64,000 nucleotides of DNA from Enhydrobacter aerosaccus (GTDB lineage: Bacteria; Pseudomonadota; Alphaproteobacteria; Reyranellales; Reyranellaceae): contig NZ_FUWJ01000001.1 of NCBI RefSeq assembly GCF_900167455.1, positions 682,001 to 746,000 on the forward strand. The letters are read 5' to 3'. The position numbers and the translations under genes were made by a program. Within the stretch, counting starts at the first letter, position 1. Each line of letters starts with the position of its first letter. The notes below the pieces were generated by a model that was not told the origin of the DNA, did no database searches, and was given only the letters and a program-made list of their open reading frames with translations. Below are positions 10,877-20,505 of this stretch, piece by piece.

Positions 10877-11911
10877 ATGAAAAAACAAGCAATGGCCTTG
10901 GCCATCGGCTTGCTGGGCGCGGCGATCGGCCTGCCAGCCTGGGCGCAGGACAAGGCGCAGGACAAGCCGGTCGACTTGAAAATCTCCATCTGGCTGCCAC
11001 CAGCCCATCCGCTGGTTCCGGCGACCAAGGCCTGGGCCGAGGACATCAAGAGCGCGTCGGGTGGCAGCATCCGGTACGCGATCTTCCCCTCGGAGCAGCT
11101 CGGCAAGGCCTTCGATCATTATGACATGGCGCGCGACGGCATTGCCGACGTCACCTATGTCAATCCGGGCTACCAGCCGGGCCGCTTTCCCATCATCGCC
11201 GCGGGCCAGCTTCCGTTCATCTTTGCCGACGGTAAGAGGGGTACGGTGGCCGTCGACACCTGGTATCGCAAGCATGCGGCCAAGGAGATGGCGGACACGC
11301 ATTTCTGCTTCGCCTTCATCCACGATCCCGGCGCCTATCACGGCCGCAAGAAGGTAGTGATGCCGGAAGACCTTAAGGGGATGAAGCTGCGGCCGGCCCA
11401 GAGCACGATCGGCCAGATGGTGACGGCGCTGGGCGGTACCAACGTGCAGGCCTCGGCGCCGGAGGCGCGTGACGTCCTGGAGCGCGGCGTCGCCGATGCG
11501 ATCTTCTTCCCCTGGGGCTCGATGTTCCTGTTCGGCCTCGACAAGGTGACCAAGTACGACATGGACGTGCCGCTCTACACGACCGTGTTCACCTACTCGA
11601 TGAACAAGGCCAAGTACGACGCCATGTCGCCGGCGCAGAAGAAGGTGATCGACGACCACTGCACCACCGAATGGGCGCTCAAGGTGTCGTCGCCGTGGAA
11701 CGACTTCGAGGCTGCCGGTCGCGAGAAGATGAAGGCCGACAAGGCGCACGAGGTCTATCAGCTCACGCCCGATCAGCTCAACGCGTGGAAAACGGCCACG
11801 GCACCGCTGCAGAAGCAGTGGGCGGAGGCCGTCACCAAGGCCGGCAGCGATGCCGACGCCTTATGGAAGGAGTTCAAGGCCGATGTGGAGAAGGCTGGCG
11901 CGGGGCTGTGA
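10877..11911 (+). CDS. dctP: TRAP transporter substrate-binding protein DctP
   Basis: A 344-residue periplasmic protein with a Sec signal peptide (MKKQAMALAIGLLGAAIG..., cleavage after AWA near residue 23). The start follows GGGAGGA by 6 bases. The DctP fold landmarks are LKISIWLPPAHPL, the conserved Arg in LKGMKLRPAQS that binds the carboxylate of ligands, and the Pro-Trp region FFPWGSMFLFG. It is the first gene of a complete TRAP operon. The ligand is probably an organic acid, but the subfamily is not one I can assign to a compound. Divergent from rsmB. Confidence 0.9.
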   Translation: MKKQAMALAIGLLGAAIGLPAWAQDKAQDKPVDLKISIWLPPAHPLVPATKAWAEDIKSASGGSIRYAIFPSEQLGKAFDHYDMARDGIADVTYVNPGYQPGRFPIIAAGQLPFIFADGKRGTVAVDTWYRKHAAKEMADTHFCFAFIHDPGAYHGRKKVVMPEDLKGMKLRPAQSTIGQMVTALGGTNVQASAPEARDVLERGVADAIFFPWGSMFLFGLDKVTKYDMDVPLYTTVFTYSMNKAKYDAMSPAQKKVIDDHCTTEWALKVSSPWNDFEAAGREKMKADKAHEVYQLTPDQLNAWKTATAPLQKQWAEAVTKAGSDADALWKEFKADVEKAGAGL

Positions 11912-12459
11912 GCGCGGAATCGCATCCGGCTCATAAAGTCGGCGCTTCGCGGCCGGTGCGAGGCATCATGGATCGCATCATCGACACGATCGAGGCGATC
12001 GCAGCGCTGTTCGTCGGGCTGGTGGCGGCCGATATCTTCCTCTCGGTCCTGCTGCGGCGTTTCTTCAGCATCCAGATCCCTGACAGCTATGACTTCGGCC
12101 GTATGCTGCTGGGCATCCTGATCTTCTGGGGCATCGCCGCCACCTCCTATCGCGGTACGCACATCACCGTCGATCTGGTGTGGGCGCAGGCCAACCGCCG
12201 ATGGAAGCGCGTGATCGATATCTTCGCCACGCTGGTCCTGCTGTTCGTGGTGACGGTGCAGACCTACACGCTGTTCGACAAGGTCCGCTCGACCTATGTC
12301 GACCATGTGCTGACCTTCGATCTCGGGCTGCCGACCTGGCCGTTCTTCGCCGTGGCCTGGATCGGGGACGTGTCGGCCGTGGTGCTGATCGCCATCCGGA
12401 CCTTCCGGCTGATCGTCCATCCCGAAGAGATGCGCGAGTCGAGACCGGTCTCCCGATGA
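11908..12459 (+). CDS. dctQ: TRAP transporter small permease DctQ
   Basis: A 183-residue inner-membrane protein with four predicted helices, typical of the small TRAP subunit (DAADIFLSVLLRRFF-type first helix, then WGIAATSYRGTHITVDLV, the usual loop). I chose GTG 11908 because it overlaps the dctP stop (GTGA) and gives a normal cytoplasmic N-tail. ATG 11968 is the alternative. It pairs with DctM to form the membrane part of a Na+-driven importer. Its 3' end overlaps dctM by 4 bases. Confidence 0.85.
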   Translation: MSAESHPAHKVGASRPVRGIMDRIIDTIEAIAALFVGLVAADIFLSVLLRRFFSIQIPDSYDFGRMLLGILIFWGIAATSYRGTHITVDLVWAQANRRWKRVIDIFATLVLLFVVTVQTYTLFDKVRSTYVDHVLTFDLGLPTWPFFAVAWIGDVSAVVLIAIRTFRLIVHPEEMRESRPVSR

Positions 12460-13754
12460 GTCCCGACACCGTCGCCATCATCGGCTTCCTGGTCCTGTTC
12501 GCGTTGATGCTGCTGCGGGTGCCTGTCGGCATGGCGATGGGATTGGTCGGCGTCAGCGGTTATGCCTACCTGTCCGGCGGCGCGCCGGCGCTCAAGCTGG
12601 TCGGCCTCACCTCCATGCGGACCGTGACGGACTACCAGTTCGGCGTCATCCCGATGTTCCTGCTGATGGGCGCCTTCGTATCGCACTCAGGCGTGAGCCG
12701 GGAGCTGTTCCGGGCGGCCAACACCTTCATCGGTCATCGCCGCGGCGGGCTCGGCCTGGCGACTATCCTGTCGTGTGGCGGGTTCGCCGCCATCTCCGGC
12801 TCCTCGGTGGCAACGGCGGCAACCTTCTCGACGGTCGCCTATCCCGAGATGCGCCGCTACGGCTATCCGCAGAGCTTCGCCACCGGAGTCATCGCTGCCG
12901 GCGGCACGCTCGGAGCCATGCTGCCGCCCTCGACCGTGCTTGCCGTCTACGGCCTCATCACCCAGCAGGATATCGGCAAGCTGTTCATGGCCGGCATCCT
13001 GCCCGGCATCCTCGCCATGTCGATGTACCTGACGACCATCGCGGTCATCTGCCGGGTGAAGCCCGATCTGCTGCCGATCGCCCCCAAGGCGCCATGGTCG
13101 GAGCGGCTGGCCGGACTGCGCGACGTCTGGGCGCCGCTGCTGCTCTTCGTGTTCGTGATCGGCGGTCTCTATGGCGGCATCTTCACCCCCACCGAGGCCG
13201 GTGGCGTCGGGGCAGGGGGCGCCTTCCTGCTCGGGGTGCTGCGGGGCCGACTGGGACGGTCCGAGATCCGGGCCTCGCTGTTGCAGGCCACCCGGACGGC
13301 CGCCGCTGTCTTCACCGTCCTGATCGGTGCCTTGCTGTTCGGGTATTTCCTGACAATCACCCAGGTGCCGCAGACGGTGACCGAGTTCCTGACCAGCCTC
13401 GGCATCGGCCGTTACGGCGTGCTGGCCCTGATCATGCTGATGTATCTGGTGCTGGGCTGCCTCATGGATGCCATGGCCATGATCATCCTGACCGTGCCCA
13501 TCATCTTCCCGGTGGTGACCCAGCTTGGCTTCGATCCGATCTGGTTCGGCGTCATCATCGTCATGACCGTGGAACTGGGGCTGATCCACCCGCCGGTGGG
13601 CATGAACGTGTTCGTGATCAAGAGCGTGGTGCAGGACGTCACGTTTTCGTCAATCTTCAAGGGCGTACTGCCTTTCATCGCGACCGATATCCTGCGACTC
13701 GTTATCCTGATCGCGTTCCCGGTCATCGCGCTCTGGCTGCCCGGCCGCATGTAA
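12456..13754 (+). CDS. dctM: TRAP transporter large permease DctM
   Basis: A 432-residue membrane protein with about twelve helices, starting at ATG in the ATGA overlap with dctQ. Family landmarks are FGVIPMFLLMGAFVSHSG, GGFAAISGSSVATAATF (the ion/substrate region), GTLGAMLPPSTVLAVYG and LIHPPVGMNVFVIKSV. These make it a canonical DctM, the transporting subunit using the Na+ gradient. With dctP and dctQ it completes the TRAP system. A GC-rich inverted repeat (13743-13748 with 13764-13769) around the stop may limit read-through into the next gene. Confidence 0.92.
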   Translation: MSPDTVAIIGFLVLFALMLLRVPVGMAMGLVGVSGYAYLSGGAPALKLVGLTSMRTVTDYQFGVIPMFLLMGAFVSHSGVSRELFRAANTFIGHRRGGLGLATILSCGGFAAISGSSVATAATFSTVAYPEMRRYGYPQSFATGVIAAGGTLGAMLPPSTVLAVYGLITQQDIGKLFMAGILPGILAMSMYLTTIAVICRVKPDLLPIAPKAPWSERLAGLRDVWAPLLLFVFVIGGLYGGIFTPTEAGGVGAGGAFLLGVLRGRLGRSEIRASLLQATRTAAAVFTVLIGALLFGYFLTITQVPQTVTEFLTSLGIGRYGVLALIMLMYLVLGCLMDAMAMIILTVPIIFPVVTQLGFDPIWFGVIIVMTVELGLIHPPVGMNVFVIKSVVQDVTFSSIFKGVLPFIATDILRLVILIAFPVIALWLPGRM

Positions 13755-13784: not shown

Positions 13785-15503
13785 ATGAAGAGAGTTGGTA
13801 GCTTCCTCGGCGACTGGTGGCGGCTGGTCATTCCCTATTTCCGGTCCGAGGACTGGCGGTGGGCGATCCCGCTCCTGATCGGAGCGATTGCGCTCACCTT
13901 TACCGGGGTTGGCCTCGAAGTCCTCTTCAACCAGTGGAACCGCCGCTTCTACGACGCGCTCCAGAACAAGAACGAGGCGGCATTCTGGCACGAGATCCTG
14001 GTCTTCTCGATCCTGGCGGCGTTCTTCATCCTGAACGCGATTTCGCGCGGACTGGTCAGCCCCTATCTGCGCCTGCGCTGGCGGCGATGGCTGACCGGCT
14101 ACTATCTCAAGCACTGGCTGGACGGGCGGGGCTACTACCGCATCGAGCTGCAGCGGACGATCGACAATGTCGACCAGCGCGTCGCCGAGGACCTCAACTA
14201 TCTCGGCCAATATACGATGCAGCTCCTGCTCGGCTTTCTGAGCGCCGTCGCCACGCTGTTCTCCTTCATCTTCATCCTTTGGACCCTTTCGGGGCCGCTT
14301 CACCTCGGCATCATCGGCCTCGACGTCAACGTTCCGGGCTACATGGCCGTGGCCGCCATCATCTACGCGGTCGCCGGCTCCTTCCTGGCGAACCTCGTCG
14401 GCCGCCGCCTGATCCCGTTGAACTTCATGCGCCAGCGCTACGAGGCGAACTTCCGCTTCGGCCTGGTGCGTGTCCGCGAGAACGCCGAGGGCATCGCCCT
14501 CTATCGCGGTGAGCCGGGCGAACGGCAGGCCTTGAACGAGCGGTTCAGCGACATCTTCCGCAACGGATGGCAGGTGCTGGTAACCCAGCTTCAGCTCAGC
14601 TTTTACCAGTCGGGCTATGCACAGCTAGCCATCATCTTCCCCTATCTCGTCACCGCTCCACGCTTCTTCACTGGGGCGATCACCTTGGGCGTCATGATGC
14701 AGACGGCGTCGGCATTCGGACAGGTGCAGGGCGCATTGTCCTTCTTCGTCGACAACTACACGAGCCTCGCCGAACTGCGGGCCGTGATGGACCGTCTCAA
14801 GGGCCTGCGGGCAGCCAGCGCCGAAAGACCGGCGACGGCCATCGAGATCGAGCCGAAGCCAGGCCTCTCCGACGTTACCGTCGACGATCTGACGCTTGCG
14901 CTGCCGACCGGTCAGGCGCTGCTCAAGCACCTGACGCTGCCGCTGAAGAAGGGGCGATCGGTCCTGGTGGAAGGCACGAGCGGTTCGGGCAAGAGCACGC
15001 TGTTCCGGGCCCTGGCCGGCATCTGGCCCTATGGCAGCGGCCATGTGCGCATTCCCGAGAATGCACGCGTGCTGTTCCTGCCGCAGAAGCCCTACATTCC
15101 GATCGGCTCGCTGCGCGATGCCGTGAAGTATCCCGACGAGCAATCGACTGCCACGGACGGCGAGATCGCCGAGGCGCTACGGGCCGTGCAACTCGGTCAT
15201 CTCACGGACCGCCTCGACGAAGTCACGCATTGGACCAACGTCCTGTCCGGCGGTGAGCAGCAGCGGTTGGCGGCCGCCCGAGCCATCGTCTTCAAGCCGG
15301 AATGGCTGTTCATGGACGAGGCGACGGCGTCGCTCGACGAGGCGGCGGAGGAGACCGTCTATGACGCGCTGAGGAAGCGGCTGCCCGATACGACCATGAT
15401 CTCGATCGGGCATCGTCCGGCACTGCGCAAATGGCACGACGCGCAACTCGAACTCCGGCGCGAGCCGGGCCAGGTCGGCACCCTGGTCGAGGTGCCGGCC
15501 TGA
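13785..15503 (+). CDS. ABC transporter with fused membrane and ATPase domains, SbmA/YddA (ABC_membrane_2) family
   Basis: A 572-residue half-transporter. An N-terminal membrane domain with about six helices carries the family motif QWNRRFYDALQ near residues 45-55. The C-terminal ATPase has Walker A VEGTSGSGKST, signature LSGGEQQRLAAARA and Walker B WLFMDEATASLDE. The family includes YddA and mycobacterial Rv1819c, and its SbmA/BacA relatives import peptides and cobalamin. A GAAAGGA ribosome site precedes ATG 13785. It lies 30 bases after dctM but is probably functionally separate. The transported compound and direction are unknown. Confidence 0.88.
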   Translation: MKRVGSFLGDWWRLVIPYFRSEDWRWAIPLLIGAIALTFTGVGLEVLFNQWNRRFYDALQNKNEAAFWHEILVFSILAAFFILNAISRGLVSPYLRLRWRRWLTGYYLKHWLDGRGYYRIELQRTIDNVDQRVAEDLNYLGQYTMQLLLGFLSAVATLFSFIFILWTLSGPLHLGIIGLDVNVPGYMAVAAIIYAVAGSFLANLVGRRLIPLNFMRQRYEANFRFGLVRVRENAEGIALYRGEPGERQALNERFSDIFRNGWQVLVTQLQLSFYQSGYAQLAIIFPYLVTAPRFFTGAITLGVMMQTASAFGQVQGALSFFVDNYTSLAELRAVMDRLKGLRAASAERPATAIEIEPKPGLSDVTVDDLTLALPTGQALLKHLTLPLKKGRSVLVEGTSGSGKSTLFRALAGIWPYGSGHVRIPENARVLFLPQKPYIPIGSLRDAVKYPDEQSTATDGEIAEALRAVQLGHLTDRLDEVTHWTNVLSGGEQQRLAAARAIVFKPEWLFMDEATASLDEAAEETVYDALRKRLPDTTMISIGHRPALRKWHDAQLELRREPGQVGTLVEVPA

Positions 15504-15510
15504 GGTCGCT

Positions 15511-15804
15511 CTACTGGGTCACGACCCAGGCGAGCGAAAGAAGGACGATGAAGACGCCGACCCACAGCCAGGCCACGGTCGGACCGGCCCGGCTGCCTTC
15601 ATCGCGTAGGACGAGCAAGACCCCGCCGAGCAGGCCCAGGACAAGGCCGACCGCGCCGCCGATCACGCCGATGTTCATGTAGACGGCACTTTCGAGGGGG
15701 CCGAATACTTCGCGGGCGACGGCTGTCGATGCCAGCGCCGCGAGGGGAGCGAGGATGAGCGCTCCCCCTATGCCCCCAAGGGCGGCGAAGATCGACTTGG
15801 TCAG
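15511..15804 (-). CDS. Small three-helix membrane protein at the end of the kor operon
   Basis: An open frame of about 97 residues ends at TAG (15511-15513) and contains three strongly hydrophobic segments: FAALGGIGGALILAPLAAL, NIGVIGGAVGLVLGLLGG and AWLWVGVFIVLLSLAWVV, split by short polar loops (VAREVFGP, LRDEGSRAGP). It lacks an obvious ATG before residue 42. The likely start is the CTG at 15804, overlapping the korB stop, or a site inside korB. An ATG near 15680 would lose the first helix. The pattern is too coherent to be chance. I do not recognise a family. It may anchor the preceding oxidoreductase to the membrane (speculative). Confidence 0.55.
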   Translation of the reverse strand: MTKSIFAALGGIGGALILAPLAALASTAVAREVFGPLESAVYMNIGVIGGAVGLVLGLLGGVLLVLRDEGSRAGPTVAWLWVGVFIVLLSLAWVVTQ

Positions 15805-16856
15805 CGCAGGCTCGCGTTGATGCGTTCGAGCGCTGCGGTTCCGGGGCAGAGGTCGGCCGTCTGCAGGCTATTGAGTGGCGCCTCGACCGTGTTGAGGTTG
15901 GCGTGCAGGTCCCGCGAGCTGGGATCGACATAGAGCAGGCCGGTCACGACCTCGCCGGCCGCCAGGCCTTCCTGCACCCGCTTCATGGCAGCGATCTTGT
16001 CGGAAGGATCGTAGTCCTCGCCGAGCTTGCGCAGGCGCAGGATCGACCCGTCGTGCTGCTCGACCGTTGTCGCGGTGCCGGGCTCGTACTCGGTGGTGAT
16101 CTCGTCGCGGCCCTCGATGAAGTCGAGCCGATTCAGCGCCTCGTTGTGCTCGCGCACATACTCGTAGCTCTTGGTCGAGCCGGCGTGGTTGTTGAAGGCG
16201 ACGCAGGGGCTGATGACGTCGAGGAAGGCGGCGCCCTTGTGCGACAGCGCGGCCTTGATCAGCGGGACGAGCTGATGCTTGTCGCCGGAGAAGGAGCGGC
16301 CCACGAACGTGGCGCCCATCAGGATCGCCATCGACACCATGTCGATCGAGGAGTCGGGGTTGCTGACGCCCTTCTTGCTGATCGAGCCCTTGTCGGCGGT
16401 CGCCGAGAACTGGCCCTTGGTGAGGCCATAGACGCCGTTGTTCATGACGATGTAGGTCATGTTGACGCCGCGGCGCATGATGTGCGCGAACTGGCCGAGA
16501 CCGATCGAGGCCGAATCGCCGTCGCCCGACACGCCGAGATAGATCAGGTCACGGTTGGCGAGGTTGGCGCCGGTCATCACCGACGGCATACGCCCGTGCA
16601 CGGTGTTGAAGCCATGGCTGGCGCCGATGAAGTAGGTCGGCGCCTTGGACGAGCAGCCGATGCCCGACAGCTTGGCGACCTGGTGTGGCAGGATGTCGAG
16701 CTCGAAGCAGGCCTGGATGATGGCGGCGCTGATCGAGTCGTGGCCGCAGCCGGCGCACAGCGTCGACACCGCGCCCTCGTAGTCGCGACGGGTGAAGCCG
16801 GCCTTGTTCTTGACCAGCGACGGATGGTGCAGCTTGGGCTTGGCGATGAAGGTCAT
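15801..16856 (-). CDS. korB: 2-oxoacid:acceptor oxidoreductase beta subunit (KorB)
   Basis: A 351-residue thiamine-diphosphate subunit of a 2-oxoglutarate (or 2-oxoacid) oxidoreductase that makes acyl-CoA, CO2 and reducing equivalents. Visible features are four cysteines placed as in one [4Fe-4S] cluster (C34 and C37 in CAGCG, C68 in GIGCSS, C218 in ISPC) and the ThDP/Mg motif GDGDSASIG (111-119) with NN at 139-140. Its ATG overlaps the korA stop by 4 bases (ATGA). The C-terminal 80 residues extend past the core, as is usual for KorB of Proteobacteria. Substrate preference is inferred from the operon. Confidence 0.9.
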   Translation of the reverse strand: MTFIAKPKLHHPSLVKNKAGFTRRDYEGAVSTLCAGCGHDSISAAIIQACFELDILPHQVAKLSGIGCSSKAPTYFIGASHGFNTVHGRMPSVMTGANLANRDLIYLGVSGDGDSASIGLGQFAHIMRRGVNMTYIVMNNGVYGLTKGQFSATADKGSISKKGVSNPDSSIDMVSMAILMGATFVGRSFSGDKHQLVPLIKAALSHKGAAFLDVISPCVAFNNHAGSTKSYEYVREHNEALNRLDFIEGRDEITTEYEPGTATTVEQHDGSILRLRKLGEDYDPSDKIAAMKRVQEGLAAGEVVTGLLYVDPSSRDLHANLNTVEAPLNSLQTADLCPGTAALERINASLR

Positions 16857-18697
16857 GACGCAGCCTTGTCGAACGAAACCACCTTGGACTGGCCGATCTT
16901 CTGGGCGATATCGGCCGCGATGAAGCGCGCCGTGATCGGCGTGCCGTCATAGTGGAGGACGGGAACGAGCTTGCGCGCGTCGAGCGTGAACTCGTTCATG
17001 ATCATGGAGCGGAGCTGGCCGTCGCGGTTCTGCTCTACCACGAACACCTTGTCGTGCTCGTGGATGAAGTCCTCGACCGCCTGACTGAAGGGGAAGGACC
17101 GCACGCGCAGCGCGTTGACGTGGTTGCCGTCGGCCTCGAGATGGTCGAGCGCCTCTGCCATGGCCGGGCTGGTCGAGCCGAAATAGATCACGCCGTAGCG
17201 CGTCGGCTTGGGCGAAGAGTAGCGCAACGGCTGTGGCGCGATCTTCGCCGCGGTCGCGAACTTCTTCTGCAACCGCTCCATGTTGCGCACATAGACCGGG
17301 CCTTCCTCGGAATAGCGCGCGTACTCATCCTTGGTCGTGCCGCGGGTAAAGTACGAACCCTTGGTGGGATGCGTGCCGGGATAGGTGCGGTAGGGGATGC
17401 CGTCGCCGTCGACGTCGAGATAGCGGCCGAAGTTCTTGCCGGCCTCCAGTTCCGCCGCGGTCATCACCTTGCCACGGTCGTGGACGCGCTTGTCGTCCCA
17501 TTCGAACGGCTTGCAGAGGCGATGGTTCATGCCGATGTCGAGATCGGTCATGACGAAGATCGGCGTCTGCAGCCGGTCGGCGAGATCGAGTGCCTCGGCG
17601 GTGAACTCGAAGCATTCCCGCGGATCTTCCGGGAACAGCAGCACGTGCTTGGTGTCGCCGTTGGAGGCGTAGGCGCAGGACAGCAGGTCAGACTGCTGCG
17701 TGCGTGTCGGCATGCCGGTCGAGGGACCGCCGCGCTGCACGTTCACGATCACTGCCGGCACTTCGGCGAAGTAAGCGAGGCCGATGAACTCGGTCATCAG
17801 CGAGATGCCCGGGCCCGAGGTCGCGGTGAAGGCGCGCGCGCCGTTCCAGCCGGCGCCGATCACCATGCCGATCGAGGCCAGCTCGTCCTCGGCCTGCACG
17901 ATGGCGTACCTGGCCTTGCCCGTCTCCTTGTCGTGGCGCAGCCGCTTGCAATGGGCCGCGAAGGCTTCGGCCAGCGAGGAGGAGGGCGTGATCGGGTACC
18001 AGGCGCAGACCGTGGCGCCACCATAGACCGCGCCCAGCGCCGCCGCGCTGTTGCCCTCGACGAAGATGCGGTTGCCGACATTGTCGGCACGGCGGACCTT
18101 GAGCTTCACCGACGCCGGATCGAGATGCTGCTTAGCCCAGTCGCGGCCGAGATGCAGCGCCTTGACGTTGGAATCGAGCAGCTTCTCCTTGCCCTTGTAC
18201 TGCTCGCCGAACAGCCGTTCGATCTCGGCCGGATCGATATCCAGCAGCACCGACAGCGCGCCGACATAGATGATGTTCTTGAACAGCTGCCGCTGGCGGG
18301 CGTCGGTGTAGGTGGCGTTGCAGATCGCCGTCAGCGGCACACCGATGACGTTGATGTCCTCGCGAAAGGCGGAGGAGGGCATCGGCTTGGTCGAATCGTA
18401 GAACAGGTATCCGCCCGGCTCGATCTCCTTGACGTCCTGCGCCCAGGTCTGCGGGTTCATGGCCACCATGAGATCGACGCCACCGCGCCGGCCGAGATAG
18501 CCCTTCTCGGTGACCCGGACCTCGTACCAGGTCGGCAGGCCCTGGATGTTCGACGGGAAGATGTTGCGCGGGCTGACGGGGACGCCCATGCGCAGGATCG
18601 AGCGGGCGAATAGCTCGTTGGCCGAGGCCGATCCGGATCCGTTGACGTTCGCGAACTTGACGACGAAATCGTTAACGGCAGTCAGTGCTTGCGGCAT
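16853..18697 (-). CDS. korA: 2-oxoacid:acceptor oxidoreductase alpha subunit (KorA, gamma-alpha fusion)
   Basis: A 614-residue subunit fusing the gamma domain (residues about 10-190, GSGSASANELFARSILRMG and GYLGRRGGVDLMVAMN) to the pyrimidine-binding alpha domain (ATVCAWYPITPSSSLAE, GPGISLMTEFIG, NVQRGGPSTGMPTRT). ATG 18697 overlaps the end of the upstream flavoprotein gene by 16 bases, with a weak CGGAG ribosome site. An in-frame upstream ATG (18781) lies deep inside that gene and is rejected. KorA and KorB form the catalytic core. No CoA- or ferredoxin-domain is fused to it. Confidence 0.9.
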   Translation of the reverse strand: MPQALTAVNDFVVKFANVNGSGSASANELFARSILRMGVPVSPRNIFPSNIQGLPTWYEVRVTEKGYLGRRGGVDLMVAMNPQTWAQDVKEIEPGGYLFYDSTKPMPSSAFREDINVIGVPLTAICNATYTDARQRQLFKNIIYVGALSVLLDIDPAEIERLFGEQYKGKEKLLDSNVKALHLGRDWAKQHLDPASVKLKVRRADNVGNRIFVEGNSAAALGAVYGGATVCAWYPITPSSSLAEAFAAHCKRLRHDKETGKARYAIVQAEDELASIGMVIGAGWNGARAFTATSGPGISLMTEFIGLAYFAEVPAVIVNVQRGGPSTGMPTRTQQSDLLSCAYASNGDTKHVLLFPEDPRECFEFTAEALDLADRLQTPIFVMTDLDIGMNHRLCKPFEWDDKRVHDRGKVMTAAELEAGKNFGRYLDVDGDGIPYRTYPGTHPTKGSYFTRGTTKDEYARYSEEGPVYVRNMERLQKKFATAAKIAPQPLRYSSPKPTRYGVIYFGSTSPAMAEALDHLEADGNHVNALRVRSFPFSQAVEDFIHEHDKVFVVEQNRDGQLRSMIMNEFTLDARKLVPVLHYDGTPITARFIAADIAQKIGQSKVVSFDKAAS

Positions 18698-20505
18698 GCA
18701 TGCTCCGCGTGAGTCATTTCCATGTAGTACTTGCGCATGTCCCACGCACCGGTCGGGCAGCGCTCGGCGCACAATCCGCAATGCAGGCAGACATCCTCGT
18801 CCTTGACCATGACGCGGCCGGTCTTGAGGCCGTCGCCGACATACAGATCCTGCGTCGGATTGGGCGCCGGCGCATTGAGCCGGCCGCGCAGGTCCTTCTC
18901 GTCACCGTTCTCGGTGAAGGTGATGCAATCCATCGGACAGATATCGACGCAGGCGTCGCACTCGATGCAGAGCTTGCCCGTGAACACGGTCTGCACGTCG
19001 CAGTTCAGGCAGCGCTGCGCTTCCTTGAAGGCAAGCTCGGGATCGAAGCCGAGCTCGACCTCGGCCATGATGTCCTTCAGCGCATCGAGCTTCGGCCGAT
19101 GCGGAACCTTGAAGCGATGGTCGACAGTCGGAGCGTTGTCGTAGCTCCACTCGTGGATGCCCATCTTCTGGCTGACGATGTTGACGCCCGGAGCGGGGCG
19201 CTCCTCGACATTCTCGCCGGACAGCAGCTTGTGGATCGAGGTCGCGGCCTCGTGCCCGTGCGCGGCGGCCCAGATGATGTTCTTGGGGCCGAATGCGGCG
19301 TCGCCGCCGAAGAACACGTTCTTCACCGTGCTCTGCAGGGTCTTCTCGTCGAGCTGGGGCAGACCCCAGCGGTCGAACTCGATGCCGGCGTCCTTCTCGA
19401 TCCAGGGGAAGGCATTTTCCTGGCCGATCGCGACAAGGACGTCGTCGCACTCGTGGAACTCGTCGGGTTCGCCCGACGGTACCAGCGAGCGGCGGCCCTT
19501 GGCGTCGTATTCGGCCTTCACCTTCTCGAACAGCACGCCTTTGATCTTGCCGTTGTCGTGCTTCACTTCCTTGGGCACCAGGAAGTTCAGGATGGGGATG
19601 TCCTCGCCCATCGCGTCTTCCTTCTCCCATGGCGAGGCCTTCATCTCCTCGAAGCCGGAACGGACGATCACCTTCACGTCCTCGCCGCCGAGCCGGCGCG
19701 CGGTGCGGCAGCAATCCATCGCGGTGTTGCCGCCACCCAGCACGATCACGCGCTTGCCGACTTTGGTCGTGTGGCCGAACGATACTGACGACAGCCAGTC
19801 GATGCCGATATGGATATTGGCCGCCGCTTCCTTGCGGCCGGGAACGTCCAGCTCGCGGCCGCGCGGTGCGCCGCAACCGACGAACACCGCGTCGTAGCCC
19901 TCGGCCGTCAGCTTCTTCAGCGAGTCGACGCGCTGGTGACGGAACTCGATGTTGCCGATGCCAGTGATGAAGCCGACTTCCTGATCAATCACCGACTCGG
20001 GCAGGCGGAAGTGGGGGATCTGGGTGCGGATGAAGCCGCCCAGCTTGGGATCCTGATCGTAGATCACGATCTCATAACCCAGCACGGCAAGATCCCGCGC
20101 CACGGTCAGCGAGGAGGGGCCACCGCCGACGCAGGCCACACGCTTGCCGTTCTTGGCCGGCGCCTTGGGCATGCGCGTGCCGATGTCGTCATCCTTGTAA
20201 TCGGCGGCGACGCGCTTCAGGCGGCAGATCGCCACCGGCTCCTTCTTGCCTTTGACCAGCGTCTCGTCCTCGACGCGGCTGCGGCGGCAAGCCGGTTCGC
20301 AGGGGCGATCACAGGTCCGGCCCAGGATTCCGGGGAAGACGTTCGACTTCCAGTTGATCATGTAGGCATCGGAATACCGGCCATGGGCGATGAGCCTTAT
20401 GTATTCCGGAACCGGCGTGTGCGCCGGGCAGGCCCACTGGCAGTCGACGACCTTGTGGAAATAGTCGGGATTCGAGATGTCTGTCGGCTTCAAAACTGAA
20501 CTCAC
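18682..20505 (-). CDS. korC: GltD-like FAD/NAD(P) oxidoreductase with C-terminal 2[4Fe-4S] ferredoxin domain (KorC-like)
   Basis: A 607-residue electron-transfer subunit starting at GTG 20505. The N-terminal cysteine region (CQWACPAHTPV, CDRPCEPACRR) resembles glutamate synthase small subunit. Next come an FAD site (VGGGPSSLTVARDLA), an NAD(P) site (VLGGGNTAMDCCRTARRLG) and a second flavin motif (FFGGDAAFGPK). The C-terminus adds two ferredoxin motifs, CIECDACVDICPMD and CLHCGLCAERCPTGAW. The same layout is known from the KorC subunit of the Azoarcus evansii 2-oxoglutarate:NADP+ oxidoreductase. It is first in the operon and overlaps korA, so it should pass electrons between KorAB and NAD(P). 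Confidence 0.88.
   Translation of the reverse strand: MSSVLKPTDISNPDYFHKVVDCQWACPAHTPVPEYIRLIAHGRYSDAYMINWKSNVFPGILGRTCDRPCEPACRRSRVEDETLVKGKKEPVAICRLKRVAADYKDDDIGTRMPKAPAKNGKRVACVGGGPSSLTVARDLAVLGYEIVIYDQDPKLGGFIRTQIPHFRLPESVIDQEVGFITGIGNIEFRHQRVDSLKKLTAEGYDAVFVGCGAPRGRELDVPGRKEAAANIHIGIDWLSSVSFGHTTKVGKRVIVLGGGNTAMDCCRTARRLGGEDVKVIVRSGFEEMKASPWEKEDAMGEDIPILNFLVPKEVKHDNGKIKGVLFEKVKAEYDAKGRRSLVPSGEPDEFHECDDVLVAIGQENAFPWIEKDAGIEFDRWGLPQLDEKTLQSTVKNVFFGGDAAFGPKNIIWAAAHGHEAATSIHKLLSGENVEERPAPGVNIVSQKMGIHEWSYDNAPTVDHRFKVPHRPKLDALKDIMAEVELGFDPELAFKEAQRCLNCDVQTVFTGKLCIECDACVDICPMDCITFTENGDEKDLRGRLNAPAPNPTQDLYVGDGLKTGRVMVKDEDVCLHCGLCAERCPTGAWDMRKYYMEMTHAEHACRKH

Follow-up and report, generated by a model that had tools for sequence, protein, structure and literature searches.

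Gene pairs on the same strand are most often spaced by overlaps of -4 (ATGA, GTGA) and -1 (TAATG, TGATG), and both are typical of coupled termination-reinitiation, according to the accessible portions of PMC10666635 and PMC6728339. Heteromeric complexes are furthermore over-represented among close or overlapping pairs, by 4.5-fold in E. coli and 8.1-fold in H. volcanii, in the part of PMC10666635 available to us. CUG makes up 0.024% of bacterial starts and is 0.86% as efficient as AUG (PMC11497404, as far as its accessible text goes), so that low expression is expected where it is used. Other rare non-AUG starts, described in the available part of PMC13009471, include AUU, used by E. coli pcnB and S. 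aureus cvfC1, and AUA, used by S. aureus infC. The literature that we found on non-AUG or CUG termination-reinitiation consists, in its accessible portions, mostly of work on viruses and eukaryotes and of reviews.

We propose an explanation for a short frame behind korB in the window, by which we mean the whole 64,000-nucleotide stretch of DNA analysed here, that most reasonably fits our observations and to which we give a probability of roughly 70%. The frame would be a real operon-terminal gene for a small inner-membrane protein, made by low-level re-initiation coupled to korB at CTG or ATT/ATC. The small gene would be the last of the korC-korA-korB operon (Table 1). The overlap with korB is -4 in the window (CTGA) and -1 in a sister clade (TAATT, TGATT or TGATC); a ribosome ending korB at TGA would re-initiate on the overlapping CTG, and in the sister clade at the ATT or ATC directly after korB. 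Such a weak start would, as we propose, limit output and couple it to the translation of korB. Where the overlap has been lost, most copies would use ATG or TTG, in the main with a stronger Shine-Dalgarno-like stretch ahead of the start. The unusual starts are the main finding.

Table 1. Coordinates, within the window, of the small gene, its predicted parts and the genes upstream of it.
Feature	Position	Strand	Remark
Small membrane protein gene, 97 codons + TAG, proposed CTG start	15511..15804	-	ORF translation and homologues
CTGA, 4-nt overlap of proposed CTG start and korB TGA stop	15801..15804	-	also GTG here in G068
55-aa ORF from first canonical start (ATG), without helix 1	15511..15678	-	
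Predicted membrane helix 1, residues 2-34	15703..15801	-	AlphaFold2 and hydropathy
Predicted membrane helix 2, residues 39-67	15604..15690	-	G49, G53, G57 kept at >=90%
Predicted membrane helix 3, residues 73-96	15517..15588	-	missing from short two-helix members
GCGAG: korB Ala GCG + AG, giving weak Shine-Dalgarno-like GAG, 6 nt before CTG	15811..15815	-	
korB, 2-oxoacid:acceptor oxidoreductase beta subunit, 351 aa	15801..16856	-	
korA, fused gamma-alpha subunit, start taken as ATG of MPQALTAV	16853..18697	-	
korC-like FAD/NAD(P)-binding oxidoreductase with 4Fe-4S domains	18682..20505	-	

From stop to stop the frame covers 118 codons (15511-15867, minus strand), and its proposed first codon shares CTGA with the stop of korB. 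Upstream of this CTG the window has no ATG, GTG or TTG before the in-frame stop is reached, and the earliest canonical start is the ATG at codon 43 (15678), so that a standard caller yields at most 55 residues with helix 1 missing. The initial annotation had described, on the same strand as korB and behind it, a small membrane protein that lacks an ATG at its natural start and is hidden from ATG-based calling. This description holds: the frame has 97 residues, three predicted helices and homologues, a CTG stands where the ATG is absent, and even calling with ATG, GTG and TTG gives no more than the shortened product. Since most copies apparently open with CTG or ATT/ATC, the small gene would be missed or truncated by standard gene finders. 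The korA/korB junction is itself an ATGA, the korB ATG overlapping the korA stop, and the korA ORF extends to a TTG at 18781 by the longest reading. Convergent with the small gene is an SbmA/BacA-like ABC transporter gene (13785-15503, plus strand) that ends 7 nt from its stop, and on the same strand as the transporter, at about 11671-13754, are frames whose translations resemble TRAP-type transporter membrane subunits.

The frame behind korB is real and conserved. It goes beyond chance because homologues stand behind korB in 32 of the 65 Reyranella genomes (34 copies) and because pN/pS over codons 2-20 is low. In five groups, which hold 22 of the 31 aligned copies, pN/pS for these codons is 0.27-0.58 in the proposed frame and 0.48 to 12.9 in the other two, higher than the proposed frame in each group; the sums reuse sequences across pairs and are descriptive. 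These values show codons 2-20 to be under apparent purifying selection in the proposed frame. The nearest relative, G072, has a KorB 97% identical to that of the window and a small protein of equal 97-codon length that is 64% identical, and over codons 2-42 the two genes differ at 8, 10 and 21 sites in codon positions 1, 2 and 3.

A profile of nine small proteins, run on six-frame ORFs behind the fetched KorB loci, returned 37 strong rows (E<=2e-12), the next match being at E 0.12; removal of six duplicate loci left 31 homologues from 30 Reyranella loci (alignment A1). KorB is present in 58 of the 65 genus genomes (E<=1e-100), and the korB loci that could be assessed number 56, namely 54 plus G064 and G082, with G010 and G069 ending inside korB; for L025 and L037 about 266 bases were available after korB. 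Among these 56 the small gene is present in 32 and absent from 24, one of the latter (G081, L141) carrying a truncated relic. By the initial annotation's own criterion, a frame that relatives do not conserve would speak against the gene; the frame is kept where the gene is present, but 24 loci do without it. All 34 copies are located behind korB, including the copy of G082, which follows a korB 3' end at the end of a contig, and the two of G064, behind a gapped korB 3' end; a second copy, L134b, lies 1,230 nt downstream.

Searched genome-wide with A1, 36 of the 65 genus genomes match at E<=0.001, four of them weakly (E 4e-8 to 3e-4) and away from korB. Those in G011, G013 and G004 were rejected as copies, as they are the N-terminal part of a longer protein; the fourth is in G002 (E 3e-4). 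A single-sequence search gave several further weak matches (E 5e-4 to 0.008), which the A1 search did not support as copies except for that in G029, behind korB. The longer protein, of about 240 aa, is found in L168 (1495-2208), L169 and L170; its N-terminal membrane part resembles the small protein and is weakly similar to its profile (E 4e-8 to 1e-6), but it is encoded elsewhere and has a C-terminal soluble-looking part, and the two scanned (L168, L169) reach no Pfam family at cut-off. Outside the genus, all ten other Reyranellaceae genomes have KorB and none of the ten has the small protein (E<=1e-5), and the KorB loci examined outside Reyranella gave no strong match to the profile in six-frame ORFs. 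The seven genomes without KorB, several of them incomplete, have no match at E<=0.001. Across the class, two of 385 genomes match at E<=1e-7, both Reyranella; at most 13 candidates were scored per genome, so that weak relatives could be missed in this sample. Within the genomes searched, the small protein was thus found only in Reyranella. Four loci titled as Bordetella parapertussis or Klebsiella pneumoniae MAGs (L058, L074, L093, L098) carry a KorB about 75% identical to that of the window, and their titles look mislabelled. Two further loci hold damaged copies: L140 (G083, 1053-1232) has a 60-aa copy with an internal deletion, and in L144 the first copy (about 1053-1152) is degenerate, with 30 aa, and is followed by an intact one. 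They show repeated decay of the small gene.

Read from the ungapped N-terminal alignment of the 34 copies, the first codon is CTG in 13, ATT or ATC in nine, ATG in five, TTG in three and GTG in two; the two unclear copies, L146 (CTA-ATT) and L046 (CTT-ATC), fit neither start rule cleanly. Six of the nine ATT/ATC copies are preceded by CTA, leaving only the ATT as start, and three by CTG, which could instead be the start in these. CTA, not a known start, stands at the overlap in L146, L041, L045, L142, L143, L147 and G082. Codon 2 reads ACC or AAC in the window gene and in that of its nearest relative, which leaves the CTG as the sole candidate there. Three sets of copies argue that the aligned position is probably the real start: G068 (L136) has GTG where its sister species have CTG, the position is ATG or TTG in seven of the ten copies that stand apart from korB, and the remaining three (L032, L034, L150) have a CTG clear of the korB stop. 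No canonical start lies within 30 codons upstream in 25 of 31 copies; in-frame, a GTG is found at the sixth codon in L143 and L145 and a TTG at the fifth in L040. At L046/L006 (G029) the korB stop is lost exactly at the overlap, with TTA in its position, either as a real change or as an assembly error. In the window's own genome, an initiator-like tRNA-Met (L223, 1465-1541, minus strand) has the anticodon stem CAGG-CTCATAA-CCTG, in which an A-U pair replaces one of the three customary G-C pairs. Variants of the initiator tRNA stem are known in alphaproteobacteria, and this one is possibly relevant to start-codon stringency.

A canonical start is rare in copies that overlap korB and common in separate ones. 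Of 30 small-protein loci, 20 are classed as overlapping, and a canonical start occurs in 1/20 of these versus 7/10 separate loci (Fisher p 4e-4, a value that ignores shared ancestry), or in 2/22 overlapping once G064 (TGATG) and G082 (TAATT) are added. The first copy in G064 has an ATG start in a regular TGATG overlap, with a CTG ahead at the usual place, and G068, with its GTG, is the only -4 copy with a canonical start. KorB ends in an Arg codon CGN, for which CTG, ATG, GTG and TTG would all be silent, so the weak CTG is not forced by KorB. Nevertheless, CTG may have arisen by drift, since CGC is the commonest CGN codon, at 78% in these korB genes.

Termination-reinitiation pairs often, though not always, have a Shine-Dalgarno motif near the end of the upstream gene. 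The korB Ala codon that supplies the weak Shine-Dalgarno-like stretch is GCG in 17/20 overlapping loci versus 6/35 others (p 1.5e-6, again ignoring shared ancestry), and the groups are alike at the other korB Ala codons (29.5%, 30.5%, 29.6%). This count has 55 rows, the last being L057, a KorB record of 83% identity outside the genus set. Left out before counting were L048, L050 and L051, six early partial loci, seven duplicate loci and, in addition, all loci with a KorB identity of 82% or less. On the korC-korA-korB tree (54 rows, without L057, G064 and G082) the overlap state changes at least eight times, and GCG and overlap can be compared in seven pairs, of which on average 2.9 change the same way, 0.1 the opposite way and 4.0 show no difference; with ancestry considered the link is not significant (median p 0.25, seven pairs). 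The tree of korB only is poorly resolved, with three pairs on supported branches. That GCG tracks overlap beyond shared ancestry is suggestive only. Pairing with the anti-Shine-Dalgarno, which we took to be the standard sequence because the 16S 3' end pattern was unmatched in the genome's own assembly, is about -2.2 kcal/mol in most overlapping loci; among eleven separate copies it is -4.3 to -8.4 in eight and -1.7 to -3.0 in three. Ahead of the second copy of G064 stands a minicistron of 14 codons whose last part repeats the korB 3' end, GCGAGCCTGCGCTGATC; this tandem copy lies in L165 (reverse complement, about 1297-1640), where the minicistron repeats the korB 3' end through CTGATC. The 83-nt gap between korB and the small gene in L032 (G023) holds, by eye, hairpin-like repeats ATTCCGTTCGGC...GCCGAACGGAAT and GGGC-GAAA-GCCC before the CTG.

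The product is predicted to be a small inner-membrane protein with two or three helices and a glycine-zipper-like character. Hydropathy gives three hydrophobic stretches in the window protein, and the AlphaFold2 model places the helices of Table 1 with modest confidence (mean pLDDT 69.8, pTM 0.50, from a seven-row alignment), too weak for conclusions. Columns conserved at >=90% in the homologue alignment are G14, A15, G18, G49, G53, G57, W63, L64 and L66, although the window protein itself carries Leu at 18 and 63; residue 3 is mostly basic across the family. The positive-inside rule is used to orient membrane helices, and by it the N-terminus and the loop after helix 2 would be cytoplasmic. 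No described family fits the small protein. In Pfam and NCBIfam the window protein stays below every cut-off, its scores for T4SS_pilin, DUF7548 and DUF6069 being 14.2-16.4 bits versus Pfam gathering cut-offs of 26.6-27.2. Family scans of the 31 aligned homologues gave best E-values of 0.002 (Pfam), 0.0051 (NCBIfam) and 0.02 (PHROGs), the weak matches being scattered over unrelated families. A known 2-oxoacid oxidoreductase subunit family was matched neither by the window protein nor, at E<=0.1, by the other 30 members. A fold search of the model against the PDB found nothing at E<=0.001, and an Rfam scan of the window no match at gathering score. The literature searched, which mostly excludes subscription papers, yielded no description of this family or of its CTGA/TAATT coupling, and none of Reyranella together with ferredoxin oxidoreductase.

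Other ways in which the frame might be expressed account for less of this evidence. Translation from the canonical internal start only would give a 55-aa two-helix protein from the ATG at 15678, a codon shared at this place by several relatives; this is improbable, as helix 1 is conserved and apparently under purifying selection and the homologues with ATG, TTG or GTG begin at the full-length position. It is likewise improbable that a -1 frameshift near the korB stop appends the membrane part to KorB as a C-terminal tail, creating a membrane-anchored fraction of KorB. Relative to korB the membrane frame is indeed -1, it is also open upstream of the korB stop, and a frameshift would accommodate the seven copies with CTA at the overlap, but inspection finds no slippery heptamer at CTG CGC TGA, and in 10 loci the membrane part forms its own cistron, 10-110 nt beyond korB, and seven of these have ATG or TTG. 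An apparent KorB-membrane fusion in G064 was rejected, as an N gap in the korB 3' end joins the frames. The truncated relic in G081 (L141), the internally deleted L140 and the degenerate first copy in L144 are what a decaying or non-functional frame would leave; that the frame as a whole is of this kind is highly improbable given pN/pS below 0.6 in codons 2-20 in five of five groups and a nearest relative that keeps the 97-codon length at 64% identity.

What the protein does for its operon is a separate matter. As 24 of 56 korB loci lack the small gene, KorCAB does not need its product, and this patchy presence makes the small protein accessory. Strict korB linkage and the complex-partner bias of overlapping pairs point to a low-abundance accessory membrane partner of KorCAB, to which we would give only just less than an even chance. 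Alternatively, the protein may be made as proposed and have no functional tie to KorCAB, riding the operon for expression, which we regard as a serious though somewhat less than even prospect. Absence from those 24 loci and from ten of ten other Reyranellaceae genomes, together with the repeated changes of overlap state on the operon tree, is in keeping with such a passenger; 34 of 34 copies behind korB, genus matches elsewhere no better than E 4e-8 (the three examined being parts of longer proteins) and no match at E<=0.001 in any of the seven KorB-less genomes, several incomplete, speak against it. It is plausible that the protein may serve KorCAB in an accessory or anchoring capacity; that it anchors KorCAB or passes its electrons to quinone, as the initial annotation had suggested, we consider less likely than not. 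Operon position and the enrichment of close or overlapping pairs for complexes, in the accessible part of PMC10666635, favour it. However, the protein has very little soluble sequence, so that only short polar segments could face the enzyme, and the same 24 loci and ten genomes lack any such anchor. The quinone part of the suggestion is unsupported: the columns conserved at >=90% include no His, Cys or charged residue, and the pyridine-nucleotide oxidoreductase and 4Fe-4S domains of KorC suggest NAD(P)/ferredoxin.

Coupled low-level re-initiation, our preferred reading, has a more general form, namely that Reyranella ribosomes finishing korB re-initiate nearly regardless of the codon, so that CTG, ATT and ATC would be stable, selected, low-output starts throughout the gene family and uncoupled copies would mostly have switched to ATG or TTG. 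We offer this form tentatively, at rather less than even odds. If true, nature would here supply a graded set of starts, some coupled and some uncoupled, and gene finders would systematically overlook coupled non-AUG cistrons. Common gene finders accept ATG, GTG and TTG only, and for this reason, if coupled re-initiation tolerates CTG and ATT/ATC, operon-terminal genes of this kind would be absent from annotations. With 34 naturally varying copies of a single start region, some overlapping korB and others not, the weight of start-codon identity after termination becomes directly testable. Furthermore, an unnamed membrane protein is added to a central-carbon redox operon.

In its setting the locus resembles the KorCAB-type 2-oxoacid:acceptor oxidoreductases, as the host operon has korC-, korA- and korB-like genes; the small protein is extra to these systems and matches no described subunit family. 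Like the termination-reinitiation pairs treated in the available portions of PMC6728339 and PMC10666635, the small gene and korB lie on the same strand with -4 and -1 geometry. The usual overlaps start with ATG or GTG, whereas nearly all overlapping copies of the small gene have CTG or ATT/ATC, and their coupling is putative. With the starts of pcnB, cvfC1 and infC, as presented in the accessible text of PMC13009471, the small gene shares a near-cognate codon that is conserved in a clade and probably limits output. Those in S. aureus have extended Shine-Dalgarno motifs, by the same portion of PMC13009471, where the small gene has a weak GAG and the overlap with korB. Finally, unlike pcnB, cvfC1 and infC, the family has CTG in one set of copies, ATT/ATC in another, and ATG or TTG in most of its uncoupled members.
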